Position numbers and translations under genes: made by a program
Shown here: positions 4,722 to 49,467 of the stretch, piece by piece
How positions within the stretch are numbered: position 1 is the stretch's first letter
Layout: each line of letters opens with the position of its first letter
Notes under the pieces: generated by a model
Databases searched by the model: none
Told to the model about the DNA's origin: nothing
Seen by the model: the letters and a program-made list of their open reading frames with translations, nothing else
Assembly (NCBI GenBank): GCA_030539285.1
Contig: JAUNSH010000004.1
Location: forward strand, 38,080 to 102,079
DNA from: Eubacteriales bacterium
GTDB lineage: Bacteria; Bacillota; Clostridia; Oscillospirales; Oscillospiraceae
Direction: 5' to 3'
DNA: 64,000 nt

Positions 4722-4730
4722 ATAATGTGA

Positions 4731-4791: not shown

Positions 4792-4810
4792 CATGATAAC
4801 ACATTTTGAA

Positions 4811-34364: not shown

Positions 34365-35090
34365 CTACGGGCGTTCCTTCTGCTGGGCACCCATACGGCA
34401 GCCGACGGCACGGATGTGCTGGCGCATCAGGGCATAGGCTTCCTCAGATTCCTTCCGGGTGACCGCGTCCAGGATCCGCTCGTGGAACATCAGGGCTTCG
34501 GCGACATTTTCCCGGGTGTCCACCTGAAAAGCCCGGTAGATGCCCTTGTTGAAGGCGTCTCTGGCGTTTTCCATGGTGTTGATCAGCAGATGGTTGCCGG
34601 AGGCCTTGGCGATCTCCATGTGGAACATGGTGTCGTAATTGGTCAGCGCCTGAATGTCGCTGCCGCAGGCCCGCATTTCCCGCAGGGACTCCGTCATGAC
34701 CTCCAGATTCTCGGGCTTGGCCCGCTTTGCGGCCAGCCGGGCCAGTTCCGCCTCGATCATAACACGGAATTCCAGCAGCTCGTCCAGATCGGAGAGGATC
34801 AGGCTGGTGCTCAGCGGCGCCTGCCGGGAGATATCGCGGTAATCATTGACGATGGTGCCCTGCCGCTTTACCCGCTGGATAAAGCCCATGCTTTCCAGCG
34901 CTTTATAGGCCTCCCGCAGGGTGCTGCGGCTGACACCCAGCTGTTCACAGAACACCGGCTCCTTGGGGAAAACGAACCCCGCCGGGATCTGTCCGGTCAA
35001 GATCAGGTCCCGGATCCGCTGAAACAAAGCATCCGCCGTTCCTCCGCCGGAGGGGCCTGCCTGAGATACGATCAGTGAGACAATATCCAT
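34365..35090 (-). CDS. FadR-type GntR transcriptional regulator 1
   Basis: 241 residues. The N-terminal winged helix has IRDLILTGQIPAGFVFPKEP and CEQLGVSRSTLREAYKALES; the C-terminal all-helical FCD domain includes ELLEFRVMIEAELARLAAKR and FHMEIAKASGNHLL with metal-binding Asp/His positions. FCD regulators usually sense organic acids and repress nearby catabolic genes. It is encoded next to the transaldolase-family gene, whose promoter region carries ATGTC-W-GACAT palindromes that are good candidate targets. Confidence 0.88.
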   Translation of the reverse strand: MDIVSLIVSQAGPSGGGTADALFQRIRDLILTGQIPAGFVFPKEPVFCEQLGVSRSTLREAYKALESMGFIQRVKRQGTIVNDYRDISRQAPLSTSLILSDLDELLEFRVMIEAELARLAAKRAKPENLEVMTESLREMRACGSDIQALTNYDTMFHMEIAKASGNHLLINTMENARDAFNKGIYRAFQVDTRENVAEALMFHERILDAVTRKESEEAYALMRQHIRAVGCRMGAQQKERP

Positions 35091-36295: not shown

Positions 36296-36327
36296 AATTA
36301 GTTCCTCCTGCATTTTATGTGTCTATT

Positions 36328-36549: not shown

Positions 36550-36584
36550 TAGATATACCCAAACAAAAAGAAAGGTGGATGCCC

Positions 36585-36938
36585 ATGATCATCCGGAAGA
36601 GAAGCGAAATGGTCCCCACGCCGATTGAGCACTGCATGGGCGGAGAGGGAACCGTCATGATGGAAAAGCTCCTTTTGGGAGCGGAGGAAATGCAGGGCAA
36701 GGGCCGCGCCTATGTCCGCCACACTCTGATGCCCGGTGTCAGCATCGGCGCCCACACCCACGCCAATGAGATGGAGAGCATGGTCATTCTCAGCGGCCGC
36801 GCTGCCCACGTGATCAACGGTCAGAGCCAGCAGCTGGAACCGGGTGACATCATCGTGGCCCAGCCGGGAGACACCCACCAGATCGCGTGCCTCGGCGAAG
36901 AGCCGCTGGTACTGATCGCGCAGGTTCTGTTCGCGTAA
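36585..36938 (+). CDS. Single-domain cupin protein
   Basis: 117 residues. The cupin motifs are GVSIGAHTHANEMESMVILSG (HxHxxxxE) and PGDTHQIACLG, giving the His/His/Glu/His metal set. GGTGG six bases before the ATG at 36585 fixes the start. Small cupins of this kind can be sugar isomerases, dioxygenases or ligand-binding proteins; the reaction is unknown. It is divergent from the transaldolase-family gene and shares its intergenic operators, so a common catabolic role is likely. Confidence 0.8.
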   Translation: MIIRKRSEMVPTPIEHCMGGEGTVMMEKLLLGAEEMQGKGRAYVRHTLMPGVSIGAHTHANEMESMVILSGRAAHVINGQSQQLEPGDIIVAQPGDTHQIACLGEEPLVLIAQVLFA

Positions 36939-36979: not shown

Positions 36980-37300
36980 CTATTTCTTTTTCTTAGCCTT
37001 TTTCTTTTCGGCCGCGGTCAGTTCCGGTTCGTTCTTCCGAAGCTGCCCGATCTGCCGCGCCGTCATGACGCTGTAGGCCCCGACCATGAACAGGATCACG
37101 ATGGTGGTCAGGTTCAGGCTCATGGCGCCCACAGCCACCGCTCCGGCGGACAAGGCCAGCACCAGCACGCCGCCTGCCAGCCACAGGCAGTTGGAGCGAA
37201 GCTCCTTCTCCCACTGTTCGTGGGGCGTCAGGGGATTCTGGGCCGCCTGCTGCTGCCGCGCCCTGCGCTTCCAGATGTTGTCGCTGTCAAACAGTCCCAT
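36980..37300 (-). CDS. Small two-TM membrane protein
   Basis: 106 residues from the ATG at 37300, preceded by GAGGTGATC. The frame is open to 37480, but the extension would cover the gene's own promoter. The N-terminus is polar (MGLFDSDNIWKRRARQQQ), followed by hydrophobic segments LWLAGGVLVLALSAGAVAVG and LTTIVILFMVGAYSV, then a very basic tail of mixed Ala and Lys. No family is recognised. Confidence 0.7.
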   Translation of the reverse strand: MGLFDSDNIWKRRARQQQAAQNPLTPHEQWEKELRSNCLWLAGGVLVLALSAGAVAVGAMSLNLTTIVILFMVGAYSVMTARQIGQLRKNEPELTAAEKKKAKKKK

Positions 37301-37330
37301 TGGGATCACCTCGATGAAATGGATGGTTCC

Positions 37331-37359: not shown

Positions 37360-37445
37360 GCATCCATGGAAACAAAAAACGCCGGTCCCGTACTTTTGTG
37401 AAATATATCAAAAAACAGAATGTAAGAATCTGCAATTTTAGACAA

Positions 37446-37474
37446 TTTACTTTTTCTATGGAATGCAGTAAACT
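37446..37474 (+). promoter_or_regulatory. Upstream promoter of the microcompartment locus
   Basis: TTTACT and TAAACT are separated by 17 bases. The predicted start of transcription falls inside the first AACAT-AGG-ATGTT operator, an arrangement typical for repression. The leader is about 75 bases. Confidence 0.6.
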
Positions 37475-37475
37475 A

Positions 37476-37488
37476 AACATAGGATGTT
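37476..37488. promoter_or_regulatory. Operator A of the BMC locus, AACAT-AGG-ATGTT
   Basis: Five-base half-sites form a palindrome around AGG, starting two bases after the -10 box. It matches the sites at 37515 and 41277. Confidence 0.7.
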
Positions 37489-37514
37489 AAGATTCTGTAA
37501 AGATTTTTACCGCG

Positions 37515-37533
37515 CACAACATAGGATGTTGTG
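37515..37533. promoter_or_regulatory. Operator B of the BMC locus, CACAACAT-AGG-ATGTTGTG
   Basis: Eight-base half-sites are perfect inverted repeats around AGG. It lies 39 bases downstream of operator A, centre to centre 42 bases, in the leader of the first gene. Confidence 0.78.
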
Positions 37534-37558
37534 TGTGGATAATTAAGGAGGATGTCCA

Positions 37559-38230
37559 ATGAAAGTTGGTCTGATTTACACCAGCACGACCCCGGAACTG
37601 ATCGCCGATGTGGAGCGGGAAGTGCGCAAGCAGCTGGGCGACGGCGTGGAAATGTACAGCCTGCAGGACCCCAGCATTCTGGCTGACGTTCGGGAAGCGG
37701 GCTATGTCACCACCGCCCCCGCCGCCCGCCTCATCGGCATGTACATGAAGGCCGCGGAAGCCGGCTGCGACGCCATGCTAAACCTGTGCAGCTCCGTGGG
37801 CGAGGTCGCCGACTGCGCCCAGGACGTGGCGAAGTACATCGGCGTTCCCATCGTCCGGGTGGACGAGGAGATGTGCCGGGAAGCTGTCCGCAAGGGCACC
37901 CGCATCGGCGTTATGGCGACCCTGCCCACCACCCTGGAGCCGACCAAGGGCACCATCCGCCGGATGGCCCGGGAGAACGGCAAGTATGTGGAACTGGTGG
38001 ACTGCCTGGTGGAAGGGGCTTTCGGCCTGAATCAGGAGCAGTTCAAGGCACGAATGACCGAGAGCGCCGCGACCATCGCCGACAAGGTGGATGTCATCGT
38101 ATTCGCCCAGGGCTCCATGGCCTACTGTGAGCAGTACATCGCCGAGAAGTTCAACAAGGTGGTGCTCAGCTCCGTCCGTTTCGGCGCCGAGGAACTGAAA
38201 AAGGCCCTGATCAAGAAGGGCGTCATTTGA
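37559..38230 (+). CDS. Asp/Glu racemase-superfamily protein with a single conserved Cys
   Basis: 223 residues. The fold signature is MKVGLIYTSTTPELIADVE, AMLNLCSSVGEVADCA (first catalytic Cys) and TRIGVMATLPTTLEPTKG. The second catalytic Cys expected in the C-terminal half is not present: the strand reads VDVIVFAQGSMAYCEQ, where racemases have a GC motif. Relatives with one Cys include arylmalonate-type decarboxylases and isomerases, so a decarboxylase or a one-base reaction is possible. It is the first gene of the BMC locus, 60 bases before the TRAP transporter. Confidence 0.75.
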   Translation: MKVGLIYTSTTPELIADVEREVRKQLGDGVEMYSLQDPSILADVREAGYVTTAPAARLIGMYMKAAEAGCDAMLNLCSSVGEVADCAQDVAKYIGVPIVRVDEEMCREAVRKGTRIGVMATLPTTLEPTKGTIRRMARENGKYVELVDCLVEGAFGLNQEQFKARMTESAATIADKVDVIVFAQGSMAYCEQYIAEKFNKVVLSSVRFGAEELKKALIKKGVI

Positions 38231-38289
38231 ACCGTATTCTGTCCCGCAAGCCCGGGATAAAATAAAACGACAACAAAGGAGAAAACAAA

Positions 38290-39360
38290 ATGAAAAAAGT
38301 TCTTGCCATGATTCTGGCAGCCGCTATGGTTCTGGCTCTGGCAGCCTGCGGCGGTTCCTCCACTTCCACTCCTACCACCGCTCCCGCGGCCACCCAGGCA
38401 GCTGCCGCGGACGCCCCCGCTGCGGCTCCCGCCGCGGATGATCCCCAGATCACCCTGAAGCTGTCCTTCTCCACCAACGAGCAGGACCCCCGCGCCCTCG
38501 CTTCCGTTCAGTTCAAGGAAGAGGTTGAGTCCAAGACCAACGGTTCCGTCACGGTCGAGATCTACCCCTCCGGTCAGCTGGGCGGCGACGCCGACCTGAT
38601 CAACTCCATCGCTCTGGACTCCGGCACGGTGGACGTGATCATCACCGACGCTTCCAACTTCGCTACCTACGAGCCCAAGATGGGCATCTCCGCTCTGCCT
38701 TTCCTGTTCTCCGGCTTCGATGATGCCTGGGAGTTCATGGACGGCGAGATCGAGGCTGCCGCCGAGGAAGGCCTGCTGGCTCAGAACATGCGCGTCCTGG
38801 CCCACTACGACAACGGCTTCCGCTGCGTCACCAACTCCAAGGGCCCCGTTGAGACCCCCGCTGACATGGTCGGTATGCTGATCCGTACCCCTGAGAACCC
38901 TGTGATCATGGCTACCATGAGCGCTATGGGTGCCAACCCCCAGCCTCTGGCCTTCTCCGAGCTGTATCAGGCTCTGCAGCAGAAGACCTACGACGCTCAG
39001 GAGAACCCCATCCCCGTTATCTACAACAATAACCTGTACGAGGTCCAGTCCTACCTGTCCGTCACCAACCACATCTACTCCGGCATGTGCTTCACCATCG
39101 CTGAGAGCACCTGGAACAAGATGAGCGCTTCCCAGCAGGAGATCGTTGCCGCCGCCGCCAAGGCTTCCGCCGACTACGACCGTCAGCTGAACCGTCAGCA
39201 GACCGACGATCTGGTCAGCAAGCTGGAAGAGGCCGGCATGAAGATCAACTACCCCGATCTGGCTCCCTTCGCTGAGGCCACCGCTTCCGTCCTGACCGAC
39301 AACGCCGACACCTACGGCGAGCTGCTGACTCAGCTGCAGGCTTGGCTGGCAAGCAAGTAA
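38290..39360 (+). CDS. dctP: TRAP transporter substrate-binding lipoprotein (DctP family)
   Basis: 356 residues. A lipoprotein signal, KKVLAMILAAAMVLALAACGG, ends in the lipobox LAAC. A Ser/Thr/Ala/Pro linker is followed by the DctP fold: ITLKLSFSTNEQDP, FKEEVESKTNGSVTVEIYPS (conserved region) and VGMLIRTPENPVIMATMSAM, with the arginine that normally pairs with the substrate carboxylate. This points to an organic acid ligand. The codon pattern (many TCC, GCT, CTG) suggests high expression. Confidence 0.92.
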   Translation: MKKVLAMILAAAMVLALAACGGSSTSTPTTAPAATQAAAADAPAAAPAADDPQITLKLSFSTNEQDPRALASVQFKEEVESKTNGSVTVEIYPSGQLGGDADLINSIALDSGTVDVIITDASNFATYEPKMGISALPFLFSGFDDAWEFMDGEIEAAAEEGLLAQNMRVLAHYDNGFRCVTNSKGPVETPADMVGMLIRTPENPVIMATMSAMGANPQPLAFSELYQALQQKTYDAQENPIPVIYNNNLYEVQSYLSVTNHIYSGMCFTIAESTWNKMSASQQEIVAAAAKASADYDRQLNRQQTDDLVSKLEEAGMKINYPDLAPFAEATASVLTDNADTYGELLTQLQAWLASK

Positions 39361-39385
39361 TCCCGACTGATCCGTAAGTTTACGC

Positions 39386-39416
39386 ATGGGGTGGAGGGTT
39401 CAGCCCTCCGCCCCAT
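39386..39416 (+). terminator. GC-rich hairpin between dctP and dctQ
   Basis: ATGGGGTGGAGGG and CCCTCCGCCCCAT pair with one wobble around TTCAG. There is no clear T-run, so it probably protects the dctP message or partly stops transcription, giving more binding protein than permease. Confidence 0.5.
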
Positions 39417-39452
39417 CTCCCTATTATTGTTCGGAAAGGAGCAATTCCCGGT

Positions 39453-39947
39453 ATGAAAAAAGTACAGTCGTTTCTGGATACTGCCAGCACCGTGGTGGCG
39501 GCAGTCCTCTGCGGCGCCATGATGGTGATCCTGCTGGCCAACGTGATCCTGCGGTTCATTCCCGGGGTGGGCGGCTTTAAGTGGTACATGGAAGGCGGAC
39601 AATATCTGAACGTGTTCTCCATGCTTATTGCAGGCATCGGCATCACCGCCCGCCGCACCCACCTGCATGTGGAGCTGGTGGATTCCATCGCCGCGAAAAA
39701 TCCCAAGCTGAAGAAGATCCACAGCGTCATCGTGTCCCTGTTCGTGATCCTGTTCTATGCCATGGTGACCTACGGCGGCTGGCAGCTGGCCACCCGGGCC
39801 AAGCAGGCCGTGTCCACCATGCCCCAGTTCACCATGGGTCAGGTCTACCGGATCTTCCCCATCGCCGGTGCCCTGACCGTGGTCGCCGCCATCGTTGACA
39901 TGATCGTTCTGATCATGGAGAAAGAGGAAGGAGCGGAAACCAAATGA
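39453..39947 (+). CDS. dctQ: TRAP transporter small permease (DctQ family)
   Basis: 164 residues with four membrane segments (AAVLCGAMMVILLANVILRF, IHSVIVSLFVILFYAMV and others). The DctQ signature is seen in GITARRTHLHVELV. It pairs with the large permease, and the stop codon overlaps the dctM start (ATGA). GGAAAGGAG precedes the ATG. Confidence 0.9.
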   Translation: MKKVQSFLDTASTVVAAVLCGAMMVILLANVILRFIPGVGGFKWYMEGGQYLNVFSMLIAGIGITARRTHLHVELVDSIAAKNPKLKKIHSVIVSLFVILFYAMVTYGGWQLATRAKQAVSTMPQFTMGQVYRIFPIAGALTVVAAIVDMIVLIMEKEEGAETK

Positions 39948-41221
39948 TCGCATGGCTGTTGATTTCTTTCTTTGTTCTGCTGTTCCTGGGCGTGCCCATC
40001 GCCATGTCTCTGGGCCTGGCTGCCATCGGCGGCATCGTGTTCCTGGGCGGCGGCTCCACCGTCACCATTACCCAGCGTATGTTTGAGGGCATGAACTCCT
40101 GGGCACTTCTCGCCATCCCCCTGTACACCTTCGCCGGATACACCATGAGCAAGGGCGGCATCTCCAAGCGCCTGATGGACTTCTGCTACTCCATCGTCGG
40201 CCACATCTACGGCGGCCTGGCTCACGTGAACGTGCTGTCCTCCATGATCTTCGCCGGTATCTCCGGCTCCGCCGTGGCAGATACCGCCGGTGTCTCCGGT
40301 ATGTTCATGCCGGAAATGATCCGCAAGGGCTATTCCAAGAAATTCACCGTTGCCGTCACCGCCATTTCCTCCACCATCGGCATCATCATTCCGCCCTCCA
40401 TCCCCATGGTGGTCATGGCAGGCATCTGCGGCATTTCCACCGGCAAGCTGTTCCTGGGCGGCATTATCCCCGGCATCCTGTGCGGCTTTGCCCAGATGGT
40501 CGTCTCCTACTTCATGGCGAAGAAGGAAGGCGTTGAAAAGGAGCCTGGCCATTTCGCCATCCGCCCCGTTCTGCACGGCCTGAAGGAATCCTGGCCCGCC
40601 CTGCTGATGCCCATTATCATCGTCGGCTCCATCACCCTGGGCATCGTCTCCCCCACCGAGGCCGGTGTCATCGCCGTGGCCTACGGCCTGTTCGCCGGCG
40701 GCGTGATCTACCGGGAGCTGACCTGGGACGACATCAAGTTCGCCTTCTGTGATACCGTCCGGGTCTCCGGCCGTATCTTCATCGTCATCGGCGCCGCCAA
40801 GCTGTACACCATCATGCTGACCACCGCCGGCTTTGACAAGTGGATGGCCAGCACCATGCTGGGCTTCTCCACCAACCCCACCGTGATCTTGATCATGATC
40901 CTGCTGCTGTTCTTCATCGTGACCATGTTCATGGAGTCCATCGCCACCCTGACCCTGTTCATGCCCATCCTGTTCCCCATCGCCATGAGCGTCGGCATCG
41001 ACCCCATCGTTCTGTGCGTGCTGATCACCGTGGTCATCGGCGTGGGTCTGGTGACGCCCCCCGTTGGTATGTGCATCTACGTTGCCTGCGATTTGATGGA
41101 CATTACCGTAGGCGAGGTATTCCCAAAACTGGTACCATTCCTGATAGCGACGTTCATCTGCATTGCCCTGATGATCGCCTTCCCCCAGCTCATCACCCTG
41201 CCCACGCTTTTAATGGCGTAG
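39944..41221 (+). CDS. dctM: TRAP transporter large permease (DctM family)
   Basis: 425 residues, about 12 membrane segments. DctM motifs include MNSWALLAIPLYTFAGYTMS, GGLAHVNVLSSMIFAGISGS, IIIPPSIPMVVMAGI and ITVVIGVGLVTPPVGMCIYV. Together with DctP and DctQ it imports an organic acid driven by a sodium gradient. The start overlaps dctQ by four bases. The import system is placed between the two promoters of the BMC locus, so its substrate is probably the compound processed there. Confidence 0.93.
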   Translation: MIAWLLISFFVLLFLGVPIAMSLGLAAIGGIVFLGGGSTVTITQRMFEGMNSWALLAIPLYTFAGYTMSKGGISKRLMDFCYSIVGHIYGGLAHVNVLSSMIFAGISGSAVADTAGVSGMFMPEMIRKGYSKKFTVAVTAISSTIGIIIPPSIPMVVMAGICGISTGKLFLGGIIPGILCGFAQMVVSYFMAKKEGVEKEPGHFAIRPVLHGLKESWPALLMPIIIVGSITLGIVSPTEAGVIAVAYGLFAGGVIYRELTWDDIKFAFCDTVRVSGRIFIVIGAAKLYTIMLTTAGFDKWMASTMLGFSTNPTVILIMILLLFFIVTMFMESIATLTLFMPILFPIAMSVGIDPIVLCVLITVVIGVGLVTPPVGMCIYVACDLMDITVGEVFPKLVPFLIATFICIALMIAFPQLITLPTLLMA

Positions 41222-41235
41222 CCCGGGAAAGATAC

Positions 41236-41264
41236 TTGCGCGCTTCGATGGAATGTGCTAGAAT
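41236..41264 (+). promoter_or_regulatory. Second promoter of the BMC locus, before the FadR-type gene
   Basis: TTGCGC and TAGAAT are separated by 17 bases. The operator at 41277 lies just after the predicted transcription start. Confidence 0.65.
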
Positions 41265-41276
41265 AAATGTGTAACT

Positions 41277-41287
41277 ACATAGGATGT
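41277..41287. promoter_or_regulatory. Operator C of the BMC locus, ACAT-AGG-ATGT
   Basis: Same core and AGG centre as operators A and B. A further half-site (AACATCC) occurs at about 41307. Position downstream of the start suggests autorepression by the FadR-type regulator encoded next. Confidence 0.7.
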
Positions 41288-41338
41288 TTCGCATGATATT
41301 CCATATAACATCCCAAAGAAGCGGAAGGGGGACGGAAC

Positions 41339-42037
41339 ATGGCAGAGGACGTCTCGGAACAGAGCAAATCGGTAGTCGATCAGGTCATGGATGGGATCAT
41401 CCACCAGATCATCTCCGGCGAATTGACCCCCGGTGCCAAGCTGCCCACGGAAATGGAGCTGTGCCGCCAGTTCGGCGCGGGCAGAAACTCCGTGCGGGAG
41501 GCAGTGAAGAAGCTGCAGGCCTACGGCATCCTGTATATCCGGCGGGCGGACGGCACCTTCGTCAGTGAGACCTACAACCGCAAGATGCTGGACCCCATGC
41601 TTTACAGCCTGATCTTGCAGAACAACAACTGGAAGGATTTCGTGGAGCTGCGGGCTGTCATCGATATCGGCACCCTGAACATCATTGTCCAGCGGGAGGA
41701 TATCGGCACCTTTCTGCCGGAGCTGTACCGCACCTACGGTGAGCTTTCCGCGGAGCTGCATGGCCCGGAGCCGTCACTGGAGCGGACACTGGAGCTGGAC
41801 ATGAAGTTCCACAGCCGCATCGCCAGTGCTTCGAATAATCCCATGCTGGAGACCATTACCGAGTATATCACGCTGCTGACCCTGCCCAGCCGGCGGGAAA
41901 CCACCAAAAGGGTCATGGAAAGCGGCGAGATCGACAATTTTGTGGAACTGCACAGAAAACTGCTGAACGTCATCGAGACCCATGATACGTCCCGGATCGT
42001 TCAGGCTGTGCAGGACCACTACGTCTACTGGAAGTAG
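41339..42037 (+). CDS. FadR-type GntR transcriptional regulator 2 (BMC locus)
   Basis: 232 residues. The winged helix has IIHQIISGELTPGAKLPTEM and CRQFGAGRNSVREAVKKLQA; the C-terminal FCD domain includes FVELRAVIDIGTLNIIV and LDMKFHSRIASASNNPML. It is the only regulator within the locus, so it is the best candidate to bind the AACAT-AGG-ATGTT sites at 37476, 37515 and 41277. The effector is likely the imported acid or a metabolite. GAAGGGGG precedes the ATG. Confidence 0.9.
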   Translation: MAEDVSEQSKSVVDQVMDGIIHQIISGELTPGAKLPTEMELCRQFGAGRNSVREAVKKLQAYGILYIRRADGTFVSETYNRKMLDPMLYSLILQNNNWKDFVELRAVIDIGTLNIIVQREDIGTFLPELYRTYGELSAELHGPEPSLERTLELDMKFHSRIASASNNPMLETITEYITLLTLPSRRETTKRVMESGEIDNFVELHRKLLNVIETHDTSRIVQAVQDHYVYWK

Positions 42038-42073
42038 ATCCCCCTATTCCAAAAAAGTGAAGGAGTTTTTTCG

Positions 42074-42901
42074 ATGAAAAAAATCCTGGTTTCTGTGGCG
42101 CCGGTGGCTGCCACGGACATCCTCATCAATCCCAGGGCCATTGCCCGGGATGTGTATGAGTGCTACAAGCACGGCGCCTGCATGGTCCACCTGCACTGCC
42201 GTGACCTCAATGGCAGACTGACCCCGGATATCAGCCTGCTGGAGGAAACCATTCACTATATCCGCCAGGACAGTGACATCATAATCGAGATCTCCACCGG
42301 CGGCGTGTCCAACCTGACCATCGAGGAGCGCTGCCAGACCTGCTATCCCAGCTGGGTGGAGACCAACAGCCTGAACGTCGGTTCCGTCAACCTGGGCACT
42401 GCCGTCTACCAGAATCCCATCCGGGACGTGGAATACTGCGTGGGCAAGATCCTGGAAAACGGCAAGACCCCGGACATCGAGGTCTTCGAGCTGGGCATGA
42501 TCAACACCGTCCGGGAGCTGGATGAAAAGTTCCATTTCCCCCGGCCCCTGCTGTTCGCGCTGGTATTCGGCCACGGCGGCGAAATGCCCGCCACGGTCCC
42601 GGCGCTGGACCACATGATCGCGGCACTCTACGAGAACTTCCCCAACCGGAACGATGTGCTCTGGGGCTATACCCAGGCCCACCGGCAGGACTGGGAAATG
42701 GTAAAGGTGGCTCTGGACAAGGGCGCCACTGCTCTCCGGGTGGGCTTCGAGGATTCCGATATGATCGCCCCCGGTGTCCACTGTGACACCAACGCCGCCA
42801 TCATCGCCGACGTAGTGGACGTGATCAAGTCCAAGGGCATGATGCCCATGACGCCCGCGGAAGCCCGGGCCATGCTGGGCCGTCCCCAGCTGAAGAAATA
42901 A
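42074..42901 (+). CDS. BKACE-family beta-keto acid cleavage enzyme (DUF849)
   Basis: 275 residues, usual length. The metal-binding HxH is in MVHLHCRDLNG near residue 40, and the second metal/catalytic region is ALRVGFEDSDMIAPG; STGG also lies in the conserved phosphate-like position. BKACE enzymes condense a beta-keto acid with acetyl-CoA and split it to acetoacetate and a CoA thioester. The active site looks intact. In this locus it would give an acyl-CoA that the acylating aldehyde dehydrogenase could reduce, or work on its product. The specific beta-keto acid is unknown. Confidence 0.88.
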   Translation: MKKILVSVAPVAATDILINPRAIARDVYECYKHGACMVHLHCRDLNGRLTPDISLLEETIHYIRQDSDIIIEISTGGVSNLTIEERCQTCYPSWVETNSLNVGSVNLGTAVYQNPIRDVEYCVGKILENGKTPDIEVFELGMINTVRELDEKFHFPRPLLFALVFGHGGEMPATVPALDHMIAALYENFPNRNDVLWGYTQAHRQDWEMVKVALDKGATALRVGFEDSDMIAPGVHCDTNAAIIADVVDVIKSKGMMPMTPAEARAMLGRPQLKK

Positions 42902-42913
42902 GGAGGGAACGCT

Positions 42914-43855
42914 ATGGTGATTCAGGGCGTAACTTATCCCTCCGACTTTGAAGCCAAGAAAGCCATCATCGCCGCCGCCGCCAAGCTGGAAGCCAGGGGT
43001 TTTCAGGTGGCGGGAGACGGAAGTCTCAGCGTCCGGGTAGGCCCCAATGCCATCTGGATCACGGTGGAGGGCGCGGACAAGGCCGCCCTTCAGCAGGATC
43101 AGCTGGTGCGCATCGACCTGTCTGGCAAGCAGATGGCTACCAATAAGCCCAGGCCTCTGGGTGAGGATCTGCCGATCCATCTGCGGATCTACCGGGAAAA
43201 CGAGACCGTGCAGGGCATCGTCCATGCCTATCCTGTATGCGCCGCCGTGCTGGGGCAGCAGGGCGTTGGCATGGAAGCCGCGGCTTTCAGCCCCTCCGTT
43301 CGGAGGATGGGCCGGATCCAGCTGCTTCCCCAGAAGGATGCCCAGACCCAGGCGGAGGCCGTGGGTCTGCTGTGCCGCACGGACCGGGGCGTTCTGCTCC
43401 AGAACGACGGCTGCATGGCCTGGGGCAAGAGCCTGAGCGAAGCGGTGCAGACCGTGGAAGCCATGGACTACTACTGCAAGGTAAAGAAATGCACAGGTGG
43501 CCCGAAGAGCTGTACCTGCGGCCATTCCCGGACCGGCCTGTGTGACGGAAGCTGCAAGGCCCCCGCACCCCAGAGCGTATGCGACGGCAAATGCGCCGTC
43601 TGCGCTTCCGCGTCGGTCTGCCCCAGCCGCGCGCCGGTACCTGCCGCGCCCCAGCGGCCTGCCGCCGGTATGACCGGCATCATCCGTCCCGGCGAAGGTC
43701 TTCCCACCCTGCCGCCCCTGGACACGGCGCCCCCCACTCCGGCGGCGGTACCTGTGTCACCGGCCCCCGTTCCGGCACCCGCCCAGGTGCTTGCCGTGGA
43801 TGTGCCGAAAGCGGATGTGATGGCGGAGGTCGTTCGCAGAGCAATGGGAAAATAA
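42914..43855 (+). CDS. Degenerate class II aldolase/adducin protein with Cys-rich segment and possible encapsulation tail
   Basis: 313 residues. Residues 1-195 are a class II aldolase fold (GDGSLSVRVG, ITVEGADKAAL, EDLPIHLRIYREN, GIVHAYPVCAAVLG, LLQNDGCMAWGKSL). Of the three zinc histidines of fuculose-phosphate aldolase, the second of the HxH pair is Tyr (HAY) and the third, normally NHG, is NDG. About residues 196-242 hold ten cysteines (CKVKKCTGGPKSCTC, CDGSC, CDGKCAVC). A Pro/Ala linker then leads to a C-terminal amphipathic helix, VPKADVMAEVVRRAMGK, like microcompartment encapsulation peptides. Classical aldolase activity is doubtful. The protein may bind Fe-S or other metal, or act as cargo scaffold. 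Confidence 0.78.
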   Translation: MVIQGVTYPSDFEAKKAIIAAAAKLEARGFQVAGDGSLSVRVGPNAIWITVEGADKAALQQDQLVRIDLSGKQMATNKPRPLGEDLPIHLRIYRENETVQGIVHAYPVCAAVLGQQGVGMEAAAFSPSVRRMGRIQLLPQKDAQTQAEAVGLLCRTDRGVLLQNDGCMAWGKSLSEAVQTVEAMDYYCKVKKCTGGPKSCTCGHSRTGLCDGSCKAPAPQSVCDGKCAVCASASVCPSRAPVPAAPQRPAAGMTGIIRPGEGLPTLPPLDTAPPTPAAVPVSPAPVPAPAQVLAVDVPKADVMAEVVRRAMGK

Positions 43856-43900
43856 CAGCGGAATCCCCGGAAGGGGGATCCCCGGAAAGGATAGAATACC

Positions 43901-45364
43901 ATGGATATTACATCGCAGGAAATTGATGCGATTGTCCAGAAGGTGCTTGCGGGCATTCAGACAGGCGGCGCTGCCCCTGTCCAGCCGTCTTACACCTGTA
44001 AGACCGCCGCCGCGGCGGCCCCGGCAAGCGCTGCCGGTGACAACGGCGTGTTTGAGAATGTGGACGACGCCGTGGAAGCCGCCTGGAAAGCCCAGCGGGA
44101 GTGGGTCGCCAACTTCAAAATTGAGGACCGCCGCCGCATTATCGAGGCCATCCGCCGCTGCGCCCGCGCCCACGTTGAGGAGTGGAGCCGGAAGATCGTT
44201 GAGGAGACCGGCATGGGCCGGTACGAGGACAAGGTGGAAAAACACCTGGCCGTCATCAACAAGACCCCCGGCCCGGAGTGCCTGACCACAGAAGCCCTGT
44301 CCGGTGACACCGGCCTGATGCTGGAGGAGTACGCGCCCTTCGGCGTCATCGCCGCCATCACCCCCACCACCAACCCCACGGAGACCATCATCAACAATAC
44401 CATCAGCATGATCGCCGGCGGCAATACGGTGGTGTTTAACGTGCATCCCCGGGCCAAGCGGGTCAGCGCCCAGTGCCTGCAGGAACTGAACAAGGCCATC
44501 GTGGAAGCAGGCGGCCCTGCCAATCTGCTGACCATGACCCGGGAGCCTACCATGGAGGCCGTGGACCAGCTGGCGGCGAATCCGAAGATCCGCCTGATGG
44601 CCGGTACCGGCGGCATGGGCATGGTCAACGCCCTGCTGCGCAGCGGCAAGAAGTGCATCGGCGCCGGGGCGGGCAATCCCCCTGTCATTGTGGATGAGAC
44701 TGCCGATATCGCGCTGGCCGGTCAGAAGCTTTACGAGGGCGCGTCTTTTGACAACAACATCCTGTGCTTTGCCGAGAAGGAGGTCTTCGCCGTAGGCTCC
44801 GCCTATGACGGCCTGCTCCACGAGCTGAAGAAGAACGGCGCTTACCTGCTCAGCGCCGCTCAGACCGAGCAGTTGGTCCGCATCTGCCTGAAGCCCAAGA
44901 AAAACGGCGGGCATGAGGTCAACAAGGACTGGGTGGGCAAAAACGCCAATGAGATCCTGCGCCAGATCGGCGTTCAGGTGCCGGATACCTGCCGACTGGC
45001 TGTCTGCGAGACCCCTGCCGACCATCCCTTCGTTCTGGTGGAGCAGATGATGCCCATTCTGCCGGTGGTGCGTGTGGGCAGCTTCGAGGAAGCTGTGGAG
45101 TGTGCGCTGGTAGCCGAGCACGGAAACCGGCACACCGCTTCCATCTTCTCCAAGGACGTGGATCACATGACCCGGTTTGCCAGAGCCATTGAGACCACCA
45201 TCTATGTCAAGAACAGCGCCACCAAGGCCGGTGTGGGCATCGGCGGAGAGGGCCACTGCACCATGACCATCGCGGGGCCCACTGGTGAAGGCATCACCTG
45301 CGCCAAAAGCTTCTGCCGCCGCCGCCGCTGTGTGCTGGCTGAGGGCGGTCTGCGGATCGTTTAA
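43901..45364 (+). CDS. CoA-acylating aldehyde dehydrogenase (PduP/EutE-like), BMC cargo
   Basis: 487 residues. The N-terminus MDITSQEIDAIVQKVLAGI is an amphipathic helix followed by an Ala/Pro linker, a typical encapsulation peptide. The catalytic domain has GVIAAITPTTNPTETIINNT, GTGGMGMVNALLRSGKKCIG, NPPVIVDETADI and the active-site Cys in FDNNILCFAEKEV. It interconverts an aldehyde and its acyl-CoA with NAD. It is paired with PduL and the alcohol dehydrogenase encoded downstream, the standard core of aldehyde-processing microcompartments. Confidence 0.9.
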   Translation: MDITSQEIDAIVQKVLAGIQTGGAAPVQPSYTCKTAAAAAPASAAGDNGVFENVDDAVEAAWKAQREWVANFKIEDRRRIIEAIRRCARAHVEEWSRKIVEETGMGRYEDKVEKHLAVINKTPGPECLTTEALSGDTGLMLEEYAPFGVIAAITPTTNPTETIINNTISMIAGGNTVVFNVHPRAKRVSAQCLQELNKAIVEAGGPANLLTMTREPTMEAVDQLAANPKIRLMAGTGGMGMVNALLRSGKKCIGAGAGNPPVIVDETADIALAGQKLYEGASFDNNILCFAEKEVFAVGSAYDGLLHELKKNGAYLLSAAQTEQLVRICLKPKKNGGHEVNKDWVGKNANEILRQIGVQVPDTCRLAVCETPADHPFVLVEQMMPILPVVRVGSFEEAVECALVAEHGNRHTASIFSKDVDHMTRFARAIETTIYVKNSATKAGVGIGGEGHCTMTIAGPTGEGITCAKSFCRRRRCVLAEGGLRIV

Positions 45365-45428
45365 GGATTTGAATATTATATTTAAAAAATCAATATTCTA
45401 CTATACATACTTATAGGAGGCTCTACTT
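45365..45428 (+). promoter_or_regulatory. AT-rich spacer with hairpin before the shell gene
   Basis: A 64-base AT-rich stretch in a GC-rich operon. GAATATT (45371-45377) and AATATTC (45392-45398) can pair, and TTGAAT, TATTCT and TATACA boxes occur. AGGAGG stands eight bases ahead of the shell ATG. It may be an internal promoter or a processing site that raises shell protein output. Confidence 0.45.
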
Positions 45429-46016
45429 ATGAAAGCACTGGGTTTTATTGAAACAAAGGGTCTGGTTGGCAACATCGAAGCGACTGACGCCATGCTGAAG
45501 GCTGCCGATGTGGAATTTGTCGGCTCCAACACCATCGGCGCCGGCCTGACCACCGTCATCGTCACCGGCGAGGTGGGCGCTGTCAAGTCCGCTGTCGAAG
45601 CCGGTGAAGCCGCCGCCTCCCGGGTCGGCGAGCTGTTCTGCTCCAATGTCATTGCCCGTCCCCACAGCGATATCGAACGGATCCTGCCCCCCAAGGGCCC
45701 CGCTACCGGAAAGTCCGGCGCTCCTGCCGGCGAGCAGGTGGCTCTGAACGCCGCTCTGGGCATGATCGAGACCAACGGCCTGACCGCCAACATTGAAGCC
45801 GCCGACGCCATGCTGAAATCCGCCGACGTAACGCTGGTGGGTCAGGAGCGTATCGGCGCTGGCCTTGTCACCGTGTTCGTACAGGGCGACGTGGGTGCCG
45901 TGAAGGCCGCCGTGGAAGCCGGTCAGAACGCCGCTTCCCGCATTGGCGAGATCGTCAGCTGCCATGTGATCCCCCGCCCCCACACCAGCGTCAGCGAGGT
46001 CATGCCCGAGCTGTAA
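45429..46016 (+). CDS. Tandem-domain bacterial microcompartment shell protein (BMC-T type)
   Basis: 195 residues made of two complete, non-permuted BMC domains, about residues 2-88 and 105-190, joined by a short Pro/Gly linker. Each has the family blocks ([20 protein letters not shown] and [20 protein letters not shown]) and a pore loop TIGAG or RIGAG, and ends in VIARPH or VIPRPH. By hand alignment the halves agree at about 60% of positions, more than expected for PduT-like proteins, so the duplication looks recent or homogenised. Trimers would form a pseudohexameric tile with six near-identical pore loops. No single-domain BMC-H gene is found nearby. Confidence 0.92.
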
Positions 46017-46041
46017 TTCAAAGCAAAGGGGGCGCTGAGCC

Positions 46042-46695
46042 TTGGTTTATCACGATATTACCCAGGAACAGCTGGCACAGATCGTGGCGCAGGCAGTTCG
46101 CGCGGAACTGCAAAAGCGCAGCCGTCAGGTGCCGGTGGGGATCTCGGTGCGCCACATTCACCTGTCCCGGGGGGACGTTGACCGTCTGTTTGGACGGAAC
46201 TATCAGCTCACGCCGAAAAAACAGCTGAGCCAGCCGGGGCAGTACGCCTGCGAGGAATGTCTGGACGTGATCGGCCCCAAGGGAGAACTGAAAAAGGTGC
46301 GGATCCTGGGACCGGAGCGGAAAGCTGCCCAAATCGAGCTGGCTCAGACCGACTGCCGGAATATCGGCATCTCGGCACCGGTGCGCTCCAGCGGGGACAC
46401 CGCCGGGACCCCCGGCATCACCCTGCGGGGGCCTCTGGGAGAGATCTACGTCCCGGAGGGCGTGATCATTGCGGACCGGCATCTGCATATGTCCGCCGCG
46501 GAAGCGGCAGCCTTCGGCCTGAAGGATGGCGACCGGGTACAGATCCAGATCGGCGGCGTCAAGCCGGGCATTCTGGGCAATGTGCTGGTACGCGCCGGAA
46601 ACGGGCATTCCCTGGATCTGCATATCGATACCGACGACGGCAACGCTTTCCTGCTGCGGCAGGGACAGATGGTCACCGTCCTCGGAAAGGAATAA
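46042..46695 (+). CDS. pduL: Phosphotransacylase PduL, BMC-associated, TTG start
   Basis: 217 residues. The two PduL half-domains have VGISVRHIHLSRGDVDRLFG and IADRHLHMSAAEAAAFGL, carrying the zinc-binding histidines. The first 22 residues (HDITQEQLAQIVAQAVRAEL) form an amphipathic helix like an encapsulation peptide. It converts acyl-CoA and phosphate to acyl-phosphate and recycles CoA inside the shell. The start is a TTG preceded by AAAGGGGG; no in-frame ATG would retain the N-terminal helix. Confidence 0.92.
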   Translation: MVYHDITQEQLAQIVAQAVRAELQKRSRQVPVGISVRHIHLSRGDVDRLFGRNYQLTPKKQLSQPGQYACEECLDVIGPKGELKKVRILGPERKAAQIELAQTDCRNIGISAPVRSSGDTAGTPGITLRGPLGEIYVPEGVIIADRHLHMSAAEAAAFGLKDGDRVQIQIGGVKPGILGNVLVRAGNGHSLDLHIDTDDGNAFLLRQGQMVTVLGKE

Positions 46696-46706
46696 GGAGA
46701 AATACG

Positions 46707-46964
46707 ATGATTCTTGGTACGGTTAAGGGAACGGTCTATTCTACCCGGAAGATGGAAAATCTGAAGGGGCTGAAATTCTTGCTGGTTCAGCCCGTGAACG
46801 GCACAAAAAAAGATATGCTCGTCGCGGCAGATACACTGGGTGCGGGCATTGGGGAACTGGTGCTGGTCACCACAGATCAGACTACCCAGTATGCCGTGGA
46901 TCATCCCACCCCTGTGGATGCCTTCATTGTGGGCATCGTGGACAATCCTCCCGCCATGGAGTGA
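46707..46964 (+). CDS. eutN: EutN/CcmL-type microcompartment vertex protein (BMC-P)
   Basis: 85 residues: MILGTVKGTVYSTRKMENLKG, LLVQPVNGTKKDMLVAADT and AFIVGIVDNPP are the EutN/CcmL signatures. Five copies cap each vertex of the icosahedral shell. AAGGAG lies seven bases ahead of the ATG at 46707. It follows pduL by 11 bases. Confidence 0.94.
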   Translation: MILGTVKGTVYSTRKMENLKGLKFLLVQPVNGTKKDMLVAADTLGAGIGELVLVTTDQTTQYAVDHPTPVDAFIVGIVDNPPAME

Positions 46965-47017
46965 GGCTAATCTGATCTCTGAAACCACGTTTTCAGGGAG
47001 AAAAGTGAGGCAAAAAG

Positions 47018-48247
47018 ATGAAAATTATAGTTATTGGCAGCATTTCAGCCGGTGTATCTGCCGCTTCCCGGATCGCCGCCGGGGAGCGGAATCCTCAGAT
47101 CACCGTCTATGAAATGAGTGCCTTCTTCAGCTGCGGTGTAGGCGGACTGCCCCACTATCTGGGGCAGACCATGCAGCAGCTGAACGAAGCGATCCGGCAG
47201 AAGGAAGTGGAACTGCAAAACGCGGGGATCCAGGCCCACCTCCGCCATGAGGTGCAGGCCATCGACCCGGCCCACCGAAAGCTGACGGTCTGCGACCTTT
47301 CCACCGGCCGGGTGTTTGAGGACAGCTACGACAAGCTGGTGATCGCCACCGGCTCCTCCATCGCCCTGCCCCAGGTTCCCGGTGCCAACCGGGTGGGCGT
47401 GCAGACCCTGAAAACGGTGGAGGATCTGATTTTCCTGAAGGAGTACACCCGCACGCCCTACGTGCAGGACATTGTGATCCTGGGCGGAAACTGGGCCGGT
47501 CTGGAGATCGCCAAGGTCCTTCTGAAAATGGGCCGAAAGGTGCGCATTATCGAGGAAAACCGCCAGCTTTTGCCGGAATTTGACCCCGAAGTCAGCGAAT
47601 TGATCCGCAAGGCGCTGGAAGCCGAGGGCGTCCAGTTCAGTCTGGGTGAGCAGGTCCGCTCCTTCCCGGGCAAGACCTTTGTGGAGCAGGTGCAGACCAG
47701 CCGGGGCAGCTACCCCTGCGATCTTTGCATCGTATCCACCGGGGTGCAGCCCAATACCCGGCTGCTGGCAGGCACCGGCATCGCCACCGCGCCCAACGGC
47801 GCCGTGCTGATCAACGGGGATCTTGCCACCAATGTGCCCGGGATCTACGCGGTGGGCGACTGCGTCCAGAGCCGTCAGGGAAGCCTGCGCACCTGCAGCC
47901 TGCGGGTGGGCGGCACAGAGCTTGCCAGGACCGGCCTGACCGAAGCGGAGGCAAAACGCGCCGGCCTGCGGGTGAAAAGCGCTATGGCCACTGGCACAGA
48001 CCGCCCCGGCATCTGCCCCAATCCCCAGAAAATCACCATCAAGCTGGTCTATGAAGCCAATACCCATCAGGTGGTGGGCGCTCAGGCCTGGGGCGGAAAA
48101 AATGTGGCGACCCGCGTCAATGCCATCGCCGTAGCTATTCGTGCCGGCATGACCGCCGAGACCTTGAGCCAGGTGGATTTCTGCTATTCCTCCGCCGAGT
48201 GCTCCATCTGGGATCCCATCCAGATCGTCTGCGGTCAGGCGAAATAA
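47018..48247 (+). CDS. CoA-disulfide reductase/NADH oxidase-like flavoprotein
   Basis: 409 residues. FAD binding starts at IIVIGSISAGVSAASRIA, and the redox cysteine is in FFSCGVGGLPHYLG, where CoA-disulfide reductases have a single active Cys. A second nucleotide-binding motif reads IVILGGNWAGLEIAKVLLKM, and GIYAVGDCVQ closes the FAD site. The protein is shorter than typical CoADR and lacks a rhodanese domain. In the BMC locus it may balance NAD(H) or keep CoA reduced. No encapsulation peptide is seen. Confidence 0.82.
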   Translation: MKIIVIGSISAGVSAASRIAAGERNPQITVYEMSAFFSCGVGGLPHYLGQTMQQLNEAIRQKEVELQNAGIQAHLRHEVQAIDPAHRKLTVCDLSTGRVFEDSYDKLVIATGSSIALPQVPGANRVGVQTLKTVEDLIFLKEYTRTPYVQDIVILGGNWAGLEIAKVLLKMGRKVRIIEENRQLLPEFDPEVSELIRKALEAEGVQFSLGEQVRSFPGKTFVEQVQTSRGSYPCDLCIVSTGVQPNTRLLAGTGIATAPNGAVLINGDLATNVPGIYAVGDCVQSRQGSLRTCSLRVGGTELARTGLTEAEAKRAGLRVKSAMATGTDRPGICPNPQKITIKLVYEANTHQVVGAQAWGGKNVATRVNAIAVAIRAGMTAETLSQVDFCYSSAECSIWDPIQIVCGQAK

Positions 48248-48259
48248 GGGGGCGCCGAT

Positions 48260-49432
48260 ATGCCTGAACGGATCGACGCTGTAAAAACCAGCTTTTTTGG
48301 CAAAGGCGCGGTAAGGATGCTGGAGCCGGAGCTGCAAAAAATGGGGATCACCCGCGCCCTGTTGGTCACCGACCGCTTCCTGTATGAGTCCGGCGCTGCC
48401 GCCAGAGTGGCTCAGGTGCTTTCGGACGCGGGCGTGGAATTCGCGGTGTATTATAATGTGCAGCCCAATCCCACGGTGCAGGTGGTCAACGACTGTATCG
48501 CGGCAGCAGGGACCATCGGCGCACAAATGCTGATCGCTTTGGGCGGCGGTTCCGCCATCGACACTGCCAAGGCCGCCAGCATCGTACTGGCAAACGGCGG
48601 CACCGTGGAGCAGTACGAGGGCACCAACAAATCCTCCCGTCCCGGACTGCCCATCGTGGCCATCAACACCACGGCAGGCACCGGCAGCGAATGCACCTCC
48701 TTCTATATCGTCACGGACCCTGTCCGTCACAGCAAAATGGCCATGGTGGACACCAACTGCATGGTCTCCATTGCCGTCAACGATACGGACTTTATGCGCT
48801 CCATGCCCCCGAAGCTGACAGCGGCTACGGGAATGGACGCCATGACCCACGCCATCGAGGCGGTGCTGTCCAAAAACGCCAGCCCCGTTACCGATAAGGA
48901 CGCGCTGTGGGCCATTGAGGTCATTGGGCAGTATCTGCCGGCCGCCGTAAAAAACGGTAAGGACGAACAGGCCCGAACCATGATGGCCTATGCGGAAAAT
49001 GTGGCAGGCATGGCTTTCAGCAATGCCGGACTTGGCATGGTACACGCCATGGCCCACGCACTGGGCGGGCGGTACAACCTGCCCCATGGTGTCTGCAACG
49101 CGGTGCTTCTGCCCTATGTACTTGCTTTTGATGCCCAGCGGCCCACGTTTGGGCCACGGTTCCGGGCCATTGCCAAGGCCATGGGACTTCCCGGTGTGGA
49201 AGTGATGCAGGATGCACAGGCAGCCGCCGCAGTTGTTTCCGCGGTGCGGCAGCTGAATCAGGTGGTGGGGATCAGCCCTTGTCTACGGGAGCTGAACAAG
49301 GTCGATCCCGCCCATTTCCCTGATCTTGCTGCGCTGGCAATGAAGGATACCTGCATGTCCAGCAATCTGGTGTCTGTGACCCCGGTGGAAGTCATCGCCG
49401 TCTATACGGCAGCTTACATGGGAACGGAATAA
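48260..49432 (+). CDS. Iron-containing alcohol dehydrogenase (PduQ-like)
   Basis: 390 residues of the type III alcohol dehydrogenase family. The NAD-binding GGGSAIDTAK and the metal ligands in MDAMTHAIEA, GMVHAMAHALGGRYNLPHG (His residues) are present. It reduces the aldehyde to an alcohol while regenerating NAD for the aldehyde dehydrogenase. AAGGGGG precedes the ATG. It is the last gene of the BMC locus, followed by a terminator. Confidence 0.92.
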   Translation: MPERIDAVKTSFFGKGAVRMLEPELQKMGITRALLVTDRFLYESGAAARVAQVLSDAGVEFAVYYNVQPNPTVQVVNDCIAAAGTIGAQMLIALGGGSAIDTAKAASIVLANGGTVEQYEGTNKSSRPGLPIVAINTTAGTGSECTSFYIVTDPVRHSKMAMVDTNCMVSIAVNDTDFMRSMPPKLTAATGMDAMTHAIEAVLSKNASPVTDKDALWAIEVIGQYLPAAVKNGKDEQARTMMAYAENVAGMAFSNAGLGMVHAMAHALGGRYNLPHGVCNAVLLPYVLAFDAQRPTFGPRFRAIAKAMGLPGVEVMQDAQAAAAVVSAVRQLNQVVGISPCLRELNKVDPAHFPDLAALAMKDTCMSSNLVSVTPVEVIAVYTAAYMGTE

Positions 49433-49439
49433 ACATGAG

Positions 49440-49467
49440 AACGCCTCTCCGAATTTGGAGAGGCGTT
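49440..49467 (+). terminator. Terminator of the BMC locus
   Basis: AACGCCTCTCC and its complement form an 11-base stem with a six-base loop. The T-run is weak, but the hairpin stands just after the last stop codon and before a convergent gene. Confidence 0.8.

Follow-up and report, generated by a model that had tools for sequence, protein, structure and literature searches.

The 64,000-nucleotide stretch of DNA analysed here (hereafter the window), from a clostridial genome of the family Oscillospiraceae, carries a locus for a bacterial microcompartment (BMC). Thirteen co-directed genes form one operon between positions 37559 and 49432 (Table 1). They encode RAC, a member of the Asp/Glu/hydantoin racemase superfamily, the three components of a TRAP transporter (DctP, DctQ and DctM), a FadR-type regulator, a BKACE-family protein, a class II aldolase-like protein, a CoA-acylating aldehyde dehydrogenase (AldDH), a tandem shell protein, the phosphotransacylase PduL, the vertex protein EutN, a flavoprotein and an iron-containing alcohol dehydrogenase (ADH). 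Each scored above the cut-off of its Pfam family in a profile search, as did every gene family called in the original prediction, which had been made from the DNA letters alone; an NCBIfam scan covering 10 of the 13 proteins gave matches for nine. The gene families bear out the predicted metabolosome core, which is complete, with its unfamiliar signature step and its importer of organic acids. AldDH, phosphotransacylase and ADH are all present, and none of the 13 genes encodes a diol dehydratase, an ammonia lyase, a choline lyase or an intact sugar aldolase. The locus had also been called compact, which if anything understates the case, there being two shell genes only, one for a fused pair of BMC-H domains and one for a BMC-P protein.

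Table 1. Features of the microcompartment locus and its borders (window positions; bits are Pfam profile scores unless NCBIfam is named)
Feature	Position	Strand	Evidence and remarks
GntR/FCD regulator adjoining the transaldolase-like gene	34365..35090	-	Pfam GntR + FCD; same order in L041; membership uncertain
Transaldolase-family protein, proposed kinase substitute	35261..36313	-	PF00923, 94 bits
Cupin, candidate isomerase	36579..36938	+	Cupin_2, 54 bits
Small divergent protein with two membrane helices (by eye)	36980..37300	-	Internal ATG of open reading frame 36980-37480 taken as start
Operator copy 1	37477..37487	+	ACATAGGATGT, exact
Operator copy 2, overlapping a 13-nt inverted repeat	37519..37529	+	ACATAGGATGT, exact
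RAC, Asp/Glu/hydantoin racemase superfamily, second catalytic cysteine replaced	37559..38230	+	PF01177, 58 bits
DctP, TRAP substrate-binding protein	38290..39360	+	PF03480, 276 bits
DctQ	39453..39947	+	PF04290, 56 bits
DctM	39944..41221	+	PF06808, 366 bits
Operator copy 3, ahead of the regulator	41277..41287	+	ACATAGGATGT, exact
FadR-type (GntR/FCD) regulator	41339..42037	+	PF00392, 66 bits; PF07729, 46 bits
BKACE-family protein	42074..42901	+	PF05853, 190 bits (cut-off 24.8)
Class II aldolase-like protein, altered metal site, Cys-rich linker, C-terminal helix	42914..43855	+	PF00596, 99 bits
CoA-acylating aldehyde dehydrogenase (AldDH)	43901..45364	+	Aldedh, 114 bits; NCBIfam PRK15398, 652 bits (cut-off 403)
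Tandem shell protein, A-type + B-type BMC-H fused	45429..46016	+	Two BMC domains
PduL phosphotransacylase	46042..46695	+	PF06130 (PTAC), 243 bits; NCBIfam PRK15070, 255 bits (cut-off 209)
EutN/BMC-P vertex protein	46692..46964	+	PF03319 (EutN_CcmL), 87 bits
CoA-disulfide-reductase-like flavoprotein	47018..48247	+	Pyr_redox_2, 191 bits; NCBIfam PRK09564, 338 bits, below cut-off 458
Iron-containing alcohol dehydrogenase (ADH), lactaldehyde-reductase-like	48260..49432	+	Fe-ADH, 157 + 197 bits; NCBIfam TIGR02638, 397 bits, below cut-off 523
Hairpin, 11 pairs, between the operon and a convergent gene	49440..49467		T tail on minus strand only

The arrangement recurs in other genomes (L, G and C numbers are our labels for loci, genomes and contigs). 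When the BKACE protein was searched against 84,980 species genomes, in a scan that detects close relatives only, 10 loci were found, with orthologues 60-97% identical to the window protein. Seven of them (L041-L047) carry the same operon, including those of Faecalibacterium sp. I4-3-84 and Anaeromicropila populeti; L043 is truncated at its 5' end by the end of its contig and is without RAC. The other three, L048 in Gemmiger, L049 in Blautia luti and L050, combine RAC and BKACE with a DUF1537 kinase and have no shell genes, and the regulator is also found in L048 and L049. A second search, for RAC in the B. luti family (348 genomes), found 17 genes in 16 genomes: five in operon loci (A. populeti, L080, L081, L083 and L084), 11 (in ten genomes) in shell-less loci, and one in L082, a 6 kb contig with RAC, DctQ, DctM and a transaldolase-like gene that was assigned to the operon type solely on its TRAP genes. 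In L083 (G1076:C2), DctP, AldDH, PduL and probably BKACE are split over several reading frames, through decay or poor assembly, and in L104:729-2744 (G1184:C18) a single 672-aa frame follows EutN whose end matches ADH (67%), possibly a fusion of flavoprotein and ADH. Because gene order, over the stretches compared, is kept in at least 11 other genomes (the seven of L041-L047 and the four of L080, L081, L083 and L084), chance is ruled out for the arrangement, and the locus is a real, conserved metabolosome with a minimal set of shell genes. The comparison with these relatives also corrects its earlier extent, as the functional locus probably reaches left to include the cupin and transaldolase-like genes.

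Near home, the operon type is rare. In 393 other genomes of the order, nothing matched the aldolase-like protein at more than 36% identity, and the BKACE protein had no match at an E value of 1e-60 in 390 other genomes of its class, its own genome being the only one matched. Among 100 congeners, 73 have a shell-domain match of some kind, mostly to single-domain proteins, but no full-length, unbroken match above 38% to the tandem shell protein was found; a two-domain shell protein of one congener (G045) reaches that 38%.

In a tree with their relatives, the two domains of the tandem shell protein fall into two clades, A and B. In A. populeti, L080, L081 (A-B-A-B), L083 and L084 (A-B), the two types alternate as separate genes; the seven fused proteins cluster within the A clade (support 91/91) and within the B clade (98/96), consistent with a single fusion event. 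With one fused facet protein and one BMC-P protein, the A:B ratio would be fixed at 1:1. The 2021 catalogue of microcompartment loci requires a BMC-H gene for a main locus (PMC8217296; here and below, papers are cited for the part of their text that was available). The present locus has the two-domain protein and no separate single-domain BMC-H gene, while L047, L080, L081, L083 and L084 do have single-domain genes; because of that requirement, loci of the fused type may have been missed or classed as BMC-T, and the catalogue's MUF2 and MUF3 types could include split-type loci. The window's own genome holds a second shell locus (G000:C66, L079:4352-12811) with PduL (41%), AldDH (29%), BMC-H and ADH (36%), as well as a reading frame that matches BMC weakly at two places, at one of them below the cut-off. 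By eye this locus looks EUT-like, and it could lend shell parts to the compartment described here.

Two operator-bearing promoters had further been predicted for the operon, and exact copies of ACATAGGATGT do lie before RAC (two) and before the regulator gene (one). The window has a single further operator-like site when one mismatch is tolerated (at 12541; mean expected by chance 0.55). In the whole genome (2.78 Mb), the pattern ACATRGGATGT has three exact matches, all within the locus, and a reversed control pattern has two; it is thus the placing of the operator, not its number, that counts as evidence. All three matches in the sister genome G863 are also inside the locus, and seven other genomes scanned have some at the locus and others elsewhere. 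In the window, the 400 nt preceding RAC contain a copy, as they do in 7 of the 11 operon-type relatives that have RAC (L041, L042, L044, L045, L047, L080 and L081). The FadR-type regulator would bind these sites before RAC and before its own gene, and copies at the cupin gene ahead of the kinase in L046 and L080 are at most a hint of joint control. L081 has two additional operator-like sites (ACATGGGATGT, minus strand), at 4018 and 4151 within its aldolase-like gene.

A connection with rhamnogalacturonan II (RG-II) is suggested by the relatives without shell genes. Within the stretches examined, a GH127 gene of the type seen in L049 accompanies RAC at each of the 11 shell-less loci from the B. 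luti family; the ten other RAC-linked GH127 proteins share 54-64% identity with the B. luti protein. Ten of these loci also have a DUF1537 kinase (the genome of L087 has one on another contig), and ten have a BKACE relative (36-65%). The L049-type proteins are sharply set apart from other GH127 proteins (at least 733 bits versus at most 332), and at least 18 genes for them occur in 17 of the 348 genomes, a lower bound since at most three candidates per genome were scored. RAC and L049-type GH127 co-occur in 11 genomes when 0.8 would be expected (hypergeometric 2.6e-13, kinship among genomes ignored), and the five genomes with RAC and no such GH127 are all of the operon or TRAP type. In the Gemmiger genome of L048, GH127 is encoded on a different contig. 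Two of these proteins were compared with the PDB, at a point when aceric acid had already been proposed from chemistry, and both matched entry 5mqo best (B. luti, 502 bits, next entry 334; L050, 492 bits, next entry 344). We take this entry to be BT1003 of Bacteroides thetaiotaomicron. Within family GH127, the aceric acid hydrolase is BT1003 (PMC10850190, PMC5698469).

Aceric acid is a component of side chain B of RG-II, along with rhamnose, 2-O-methylfucose, arabinose, galactose and apiose (the literature on chain B, and on the DUF1537 routes and apiose clusters mentioned below, lies among PMC12540250, PMC12168206, PMC13001218, PMC10728902, PMC12282258 and PMC8218411). Nineteen proteins picked by eye around the relatives were compared with Pfam as a neighbour scan. 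GH42 was found in the surroundings of L086 (twice), L091 and L076, GH2 near L086, L087 and L076, GH35 near L090, GH29 near L087, L089 and L090, GH78 near L092 and L093, GH106 together with GH43 near L094, an apiosidase-like protein near L091 and an MGH1-like protein near L088. L049, L050 and the short L085 showed no such glycosidase neighbours besides GH127 itself. As predicted from their families, these beta-galactosidases, rhamnosidases, fucosidases and apiosidase-like proteins match the sugars of chain B.

Genome G1020 (L096, L084 and L097) brings both halves, the RG-II-type genes and the shell operon, together in one gene run. The run holds a sugar-isomerase-like frame (below cut-offs), the C-terminal half of a transketolase, an FGGY kinase, GH78, GH127 and GH42. 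Next come a sensor, a regulator, an ABC importer, an MGH1-like glycoside hydrolase, an apiosidase-like protein, a cupin and the DUF1537 kinase. These are followed by RAC, the TRAP transporter, the regulator, BKACE, the aldolase-like protein, AldDH (in two frames), two BMC-H proteins, PduL, EutN, the flavoprotein and ADH. Clusters for D-apiose are marked by the transketolases aptA and aptB and a kinase. By elimination, the enzymes of G1020 left without an assignment would fall to aceric acid, the sole chain-B sugar for which we know of no route.

Taken together, these data suggest that the operon probably encodes a catabolic microcompartment for a sugar acid from RG-II, most likely L-aceric acid (3-C-carboxy-5-deoxy-L-xylose). 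A sugar acid is preferred to a simple beta-keto acid because the DUF1537 kinase, GH127 and RG-II-type glycosidases are linked to the locus. No literature on aceric acid breakdown was found, as judged by titles and the beginnings of abstracts. The following route is proposed. The TRAP transporter would import free acid shed by other bacteria. The aldose would then be isomerised, with the cupin and RAC as candidates, to the 2-ketose, an alpha-hydroxy-beta-keto acid that should suit the BKACE fold and, at its primary hydroxyl, the DUF1537 kinase. Decarboxylation, for which the BKACE-family protein and RAC are candidates, and cleavage between C3 and C4 would yield acetaldehyde and a C3 unit; the two steps could come in either order with the same net products. 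In most relatives, the kinase would phosphorylate the keto acid and the C3 unit would leave as dihydroxyacetone phosphate, whereas in the present genome the transaldolase-like protein would move the C3 unit onto glyceraldehyde 3-phosphate. A kinase/transaldolase swap fits a C3 unit that leaves as a phosphate in one case and is transferred by a transaldolase in the other. Acetaldehyde would be held within the shell of fused BMC-H pair and BMC-P protein, and there be split between oxidation by AldDH to acetyl-CoA, converted by PduL to acetyl phosphate, and reduction by ADH to ethanol. The L-threonate route with a DUF1537 kinase likewise ends in dihydroxyacetone phosphate after decarboxylation, and the aldehyde dehydrogenases of the EUT and SPU types handle acetaldehyde (PMC8217296). 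The full combination, that is aceric acid catabolism in a dedicated compartment of two shell genes with an A-B BMC-H fusion, in gut Clostridia that scavenge the free acid, and with a kinase/transaldolase swap, is to our mind evenly poised between right and wrong.

The importer and the enzymes proposed for the early steps can be described as follows. The closest PDB entries of DctP are 4pc9 and 4pcd (E 2.5e-50), presumably sugar-acid binders; no literature on the binding of erythronate by TRAP solute-binding proteins was found. In RAC, Cys77 and Gln184 are invariant in 18 of 18 sequences. Gln184 stands where the superfamily has the second of its two catalytic cysteines, as judged from a weak alignment to solved racemases (E 0.03 to allantoin racemase, in the range of unrelated viral proteins), and RAC alone had no match in the PDB at 0.01. 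As a pointer, these residues make a two-base racemase look unlikely and a lyase, decarboxylase or isomerase more likely. The BKACE-family protein aligns over its full length with a characterised enzyme, including the HxH and C-terminal R-x-G-F-E-D stretches, and falls below the cut-off of all four NCBIfam BKACE-type models that it matched (best 165 bits versus 382). We think that it acts on the beta-keto form of a sugar acid, and it probably makes no acyl-CoA.

The cupin gene stands directly 5' of the DUF1537 kinase gene in L046, L047, L080, L081, L083 and L084. The kinases of L048, L049 and L050 have SBD_N and NBD_C domains, and that of L049 had no match in the PDB at 1e-3. Kinase orthologues are found in 10 of 13 operon-type genomes and in all four shell-less genomes tested; in the operon-type genomes G864-G867, the gene is on a contig other than that of the operon. 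The three kinase-less operon-type genomes, that of the window (G000), its sister G863 and G1202, are precisely those with a transaldolase-family gene adjoining RAC. Across the whole window genome, no match to the L046 kinase was found at 1e-10. Two DUF1537 genes do occur there (C26 and C91), and were rejected as orthologues of the linked kinases since five such kinases gave no tblastn match at 1e-5; they could do the kinase's job nonetheless. The transaldolase-like gene may thus replace the kinase in this species. Lys140 of its product, which we take to be the Schiff-base lysine, is conserved in 3 of 3 sequences, and G864 and G866 have both the kinase and an unlinked transaldolase-like relative (57-58%).

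The aldolase-like protein had been called degenerate, and its altered metal site proves to be a family trait. With zinc-ligand positions placed by what we take to be those of FucA, His104 is kept in 11 of 11 orthologues, Tyr106 occupies the second histidine place, and the third place holds Asp (9), Glu (1) or Asn (1); the count covers 11 of the 13 operon loci, L082 and L083 (frameshifts) being left out. Decay of the aldolase in this genome only was ruled out by the same 11 sequences. All of them end in a helix with the pattern V-x-x-E-V-V-(R/K)-R or a near variant, and cargo-type helices are found at the N termini of AldDH and PduL in the sequences examined; none was seen in RAC or BKACE. Such helices were called encapsulation-peptide-like by eye, against our own notion of what is typical. 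The aldolase-like protein, AldDH and PduL thus appear marked for the interior of the compartment, the first either as an adaptor or as an enzyme of altered site that releases the aldehyde. Its Cys-rich linker (residues ~191-238) varies, 8 of the 11 proteins having 7-13 Cys after residue 190 (the window protein 9), and those of L047, L081 and L084 having 0-2.

Several points weigh against aceric acid as the substrate and against parts of the route. Seven of eight operon-type genomes tested are without an L049-type GH127, the eighth having a 36% relative, and the link with RG-II therefore runs through the relatives and G1020; scavenging of free acid would explain this absence. Six of the 18 GH127 genes are without RAC, five of them forming one well-supported clade in unrelated surroundings and the sixth (G948, L103), left out of the GH127 tree, consisting of fragments beside kinase fragments. 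The link of 5mqo to BT1003 is a presumption, and no literature naming 5MQO was found. Family GH127 consists mostly of beta-L-arabinofuranosidases, and chain B holds arabinose too. The FGGY kinase of G1020 scores as a glycerol kinase (584 bits, cut-off 498), which makes the apiose reading of that part unsure. In the RAC tree, operon and shell-less genes are not separated, with five label changes on the best tree, of which well-supported branches force one. The aldolase-like protein appears to be without two metal ligands, the ADH resembles lactaldehyde reductase (TIGR02638, below cut-off), and the nearest solved structures of the AldDH do not discriminate between acetaldehyde and propionaldehyde. 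No operator was found in the 400 nt preceding RAC in L046, L082, L083 and L084 or in any of 13 shell-less loci, and the copy touching the cupin gene in L046 and L080 overlaps its predicted start codon. The kinase swap comes down to about two independent cases, since two of the species are near-identical, and the genomes are drafts (the window's own is 84% complete). Finally, the roles of RAC, BKACE and the cupin are guesses by elimination, no dedicated isomerase, decarboxylase or aldolase having been identified.

A possible, if unlikely, alternative is that the substrate is another sugar acid, for example a C4 acid of the threonate or erythronate kind or else a different RG-II acid (Kdo, Dha), processed by kinase-type chemistry like that of the OtnI-OtnK-OtnC route, with GH127 an arabinofuranosidase that merely travels along. 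A DUF1537 kinase does act in the L-threonate route, and the L046 kinase matches a single NCBIfam model at 1e-10, D-threonate kinase, with 56 bits against a cut-off of 450. However, no acid-sugar dehydrogenase that could make an oxo acid from threonate occurs among the 13 genes (the surroundings of the relatives were not searched), a C4 acid offers no obvious aldehyde for a compartment, and GH127 accompanies RAC at every one of the 11 shell-less loci sampled. A C4 acid without a link to pectin was set aside.

The original prediction had instead a beta-keto acid route through BKACE that would supply the core with an acyl-CoA or aldehyde. In the acyl-CoA form, BKACE would condense a beta-keto acid with acetyl-CoA to give acetoacetate and an acyl-CoA that the core would reduce or phosphorolyse. 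Of this, the family assignment stands, with the BKACE profile match, the full-length alignment and the conserved catalytic stretches, and the core would supply the acetyl-CoA; the specific reaction fares poorly, as the protein stays below all four named models, shows no cargo helix by eye and has no acetoacetate-handling family beside it among the 13 genes, as an acyl-CoA needs no shell, and as the linkage to sugar-acid genes and RG-II would be left unexplained. We found no literature joining microcompartments with BKACE, beta-keto acid cleavage or DUF849, and consider this route improbable. Scarcely credible is a PVM/GRM5-like compartment in which the class II aldolase cleaves a deoxyketose phosphate to lactaldehyde, since the cargo-like helix of the aldolase-like protein, the lactaldehyde-reductase-like ADH and the rhamnosidases near some relatives stand against metal ligands altered in 11 of 11 orthologues, the lack of a fuculose or rhamnulose kinase or isomerase among the 13 genes, an importer of the sugar-acid type and an aldolase-like protein without close counterparts in its order.

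The proposed aceric acid compartment shares traits with several described systems. Like the PVM/GRM5 type for fucose and rhamnose, it combines a shell with an AldDH fed by a class II aldolase family member, and in the ACI type, too, the class II aldolase has a C-terminal encapsulation peptide (PMC8217296, PMC4207490). It differs from PVM/GRM5 in its altered metal site (intact zinc histidines are found in none of the 11 proteins, at ligand positions that we assume), in having a TRAP importer, RAC, BKACE, a cupin and an acid-sugar kinase or transaldolase-like gene, and in the aldehyde expected, acetaldehyde. Sequestered acetaldehyde would be the common trait with SPU and EUT (PMC8217296), whose DeoC/RpiB and EutBC are not among the 13 genes. 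The MUF2 and MUF3 types are, as here, AldDH-bearing loci without an obvious signature enzyme, and this locus may already be filed under them; the catalogue text available, to which the supplementary gene lists do not belong, gives no function for MUF2, MUF3 or this locus type (PMC8217296). No literature on MUF2 beyond the 2021 catalogue was found. The D-apionate pathway, which has a DUF1537 kinase, and the OtnI-OtnK-OtnC pathway share with the proposed route this kinase and the logic of a beta-keto sugar acid; in contrast to both, there is no dehydrogenase in the operon and no OtnI or OtnC equivalog match, and a microcompartment is added. A swap comparable to that of kinase and transaldolase is found in sulfoglycolysis, sulfo-EMP using a kinase route in some species and sulfo-TAL a transaldolase in others, with an aldehyde released; the substrate there is different, and the swap proposed here is drawn from gene presence only.

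At the borders of the locus, the final terminator of the prediction is partly recovered: an 11-pair hairpin does follow the operon, with its T tail seen on the minus strand only, so that it may serve the convergent gene 49484-50512. This gene encodes a DUF6076 protein, and its neighbouring counterpart in L041 is 71% identical. The small divergent protein at the other border had no match in a Pfam scan, and relatives of it lie in the equivalent position in L041, L046, L047 and L081 (28%). Farther away, at 2433-7567, two large reading frames resemble, by eye, a xanthine-dehydrogenase-type molybdenum hydroxylase and its FAD/Fe-S partner.

If the aceric acid reading is true, a function would be found for a metabolosome type for which we found none, and a branched sugar acid would join the short list of compartment substrates. 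A missing step of RG-II use in the gut would also be supplied, and the fate of aceric acid can be tested in the cultured Faecalibacterium sp. I4-3-84, A. populeti and B. luti. From the natural A-B fusion, a facet tile of obligate A3B3 composition and a very simple shell are to be expected, which would be useful for engineering.

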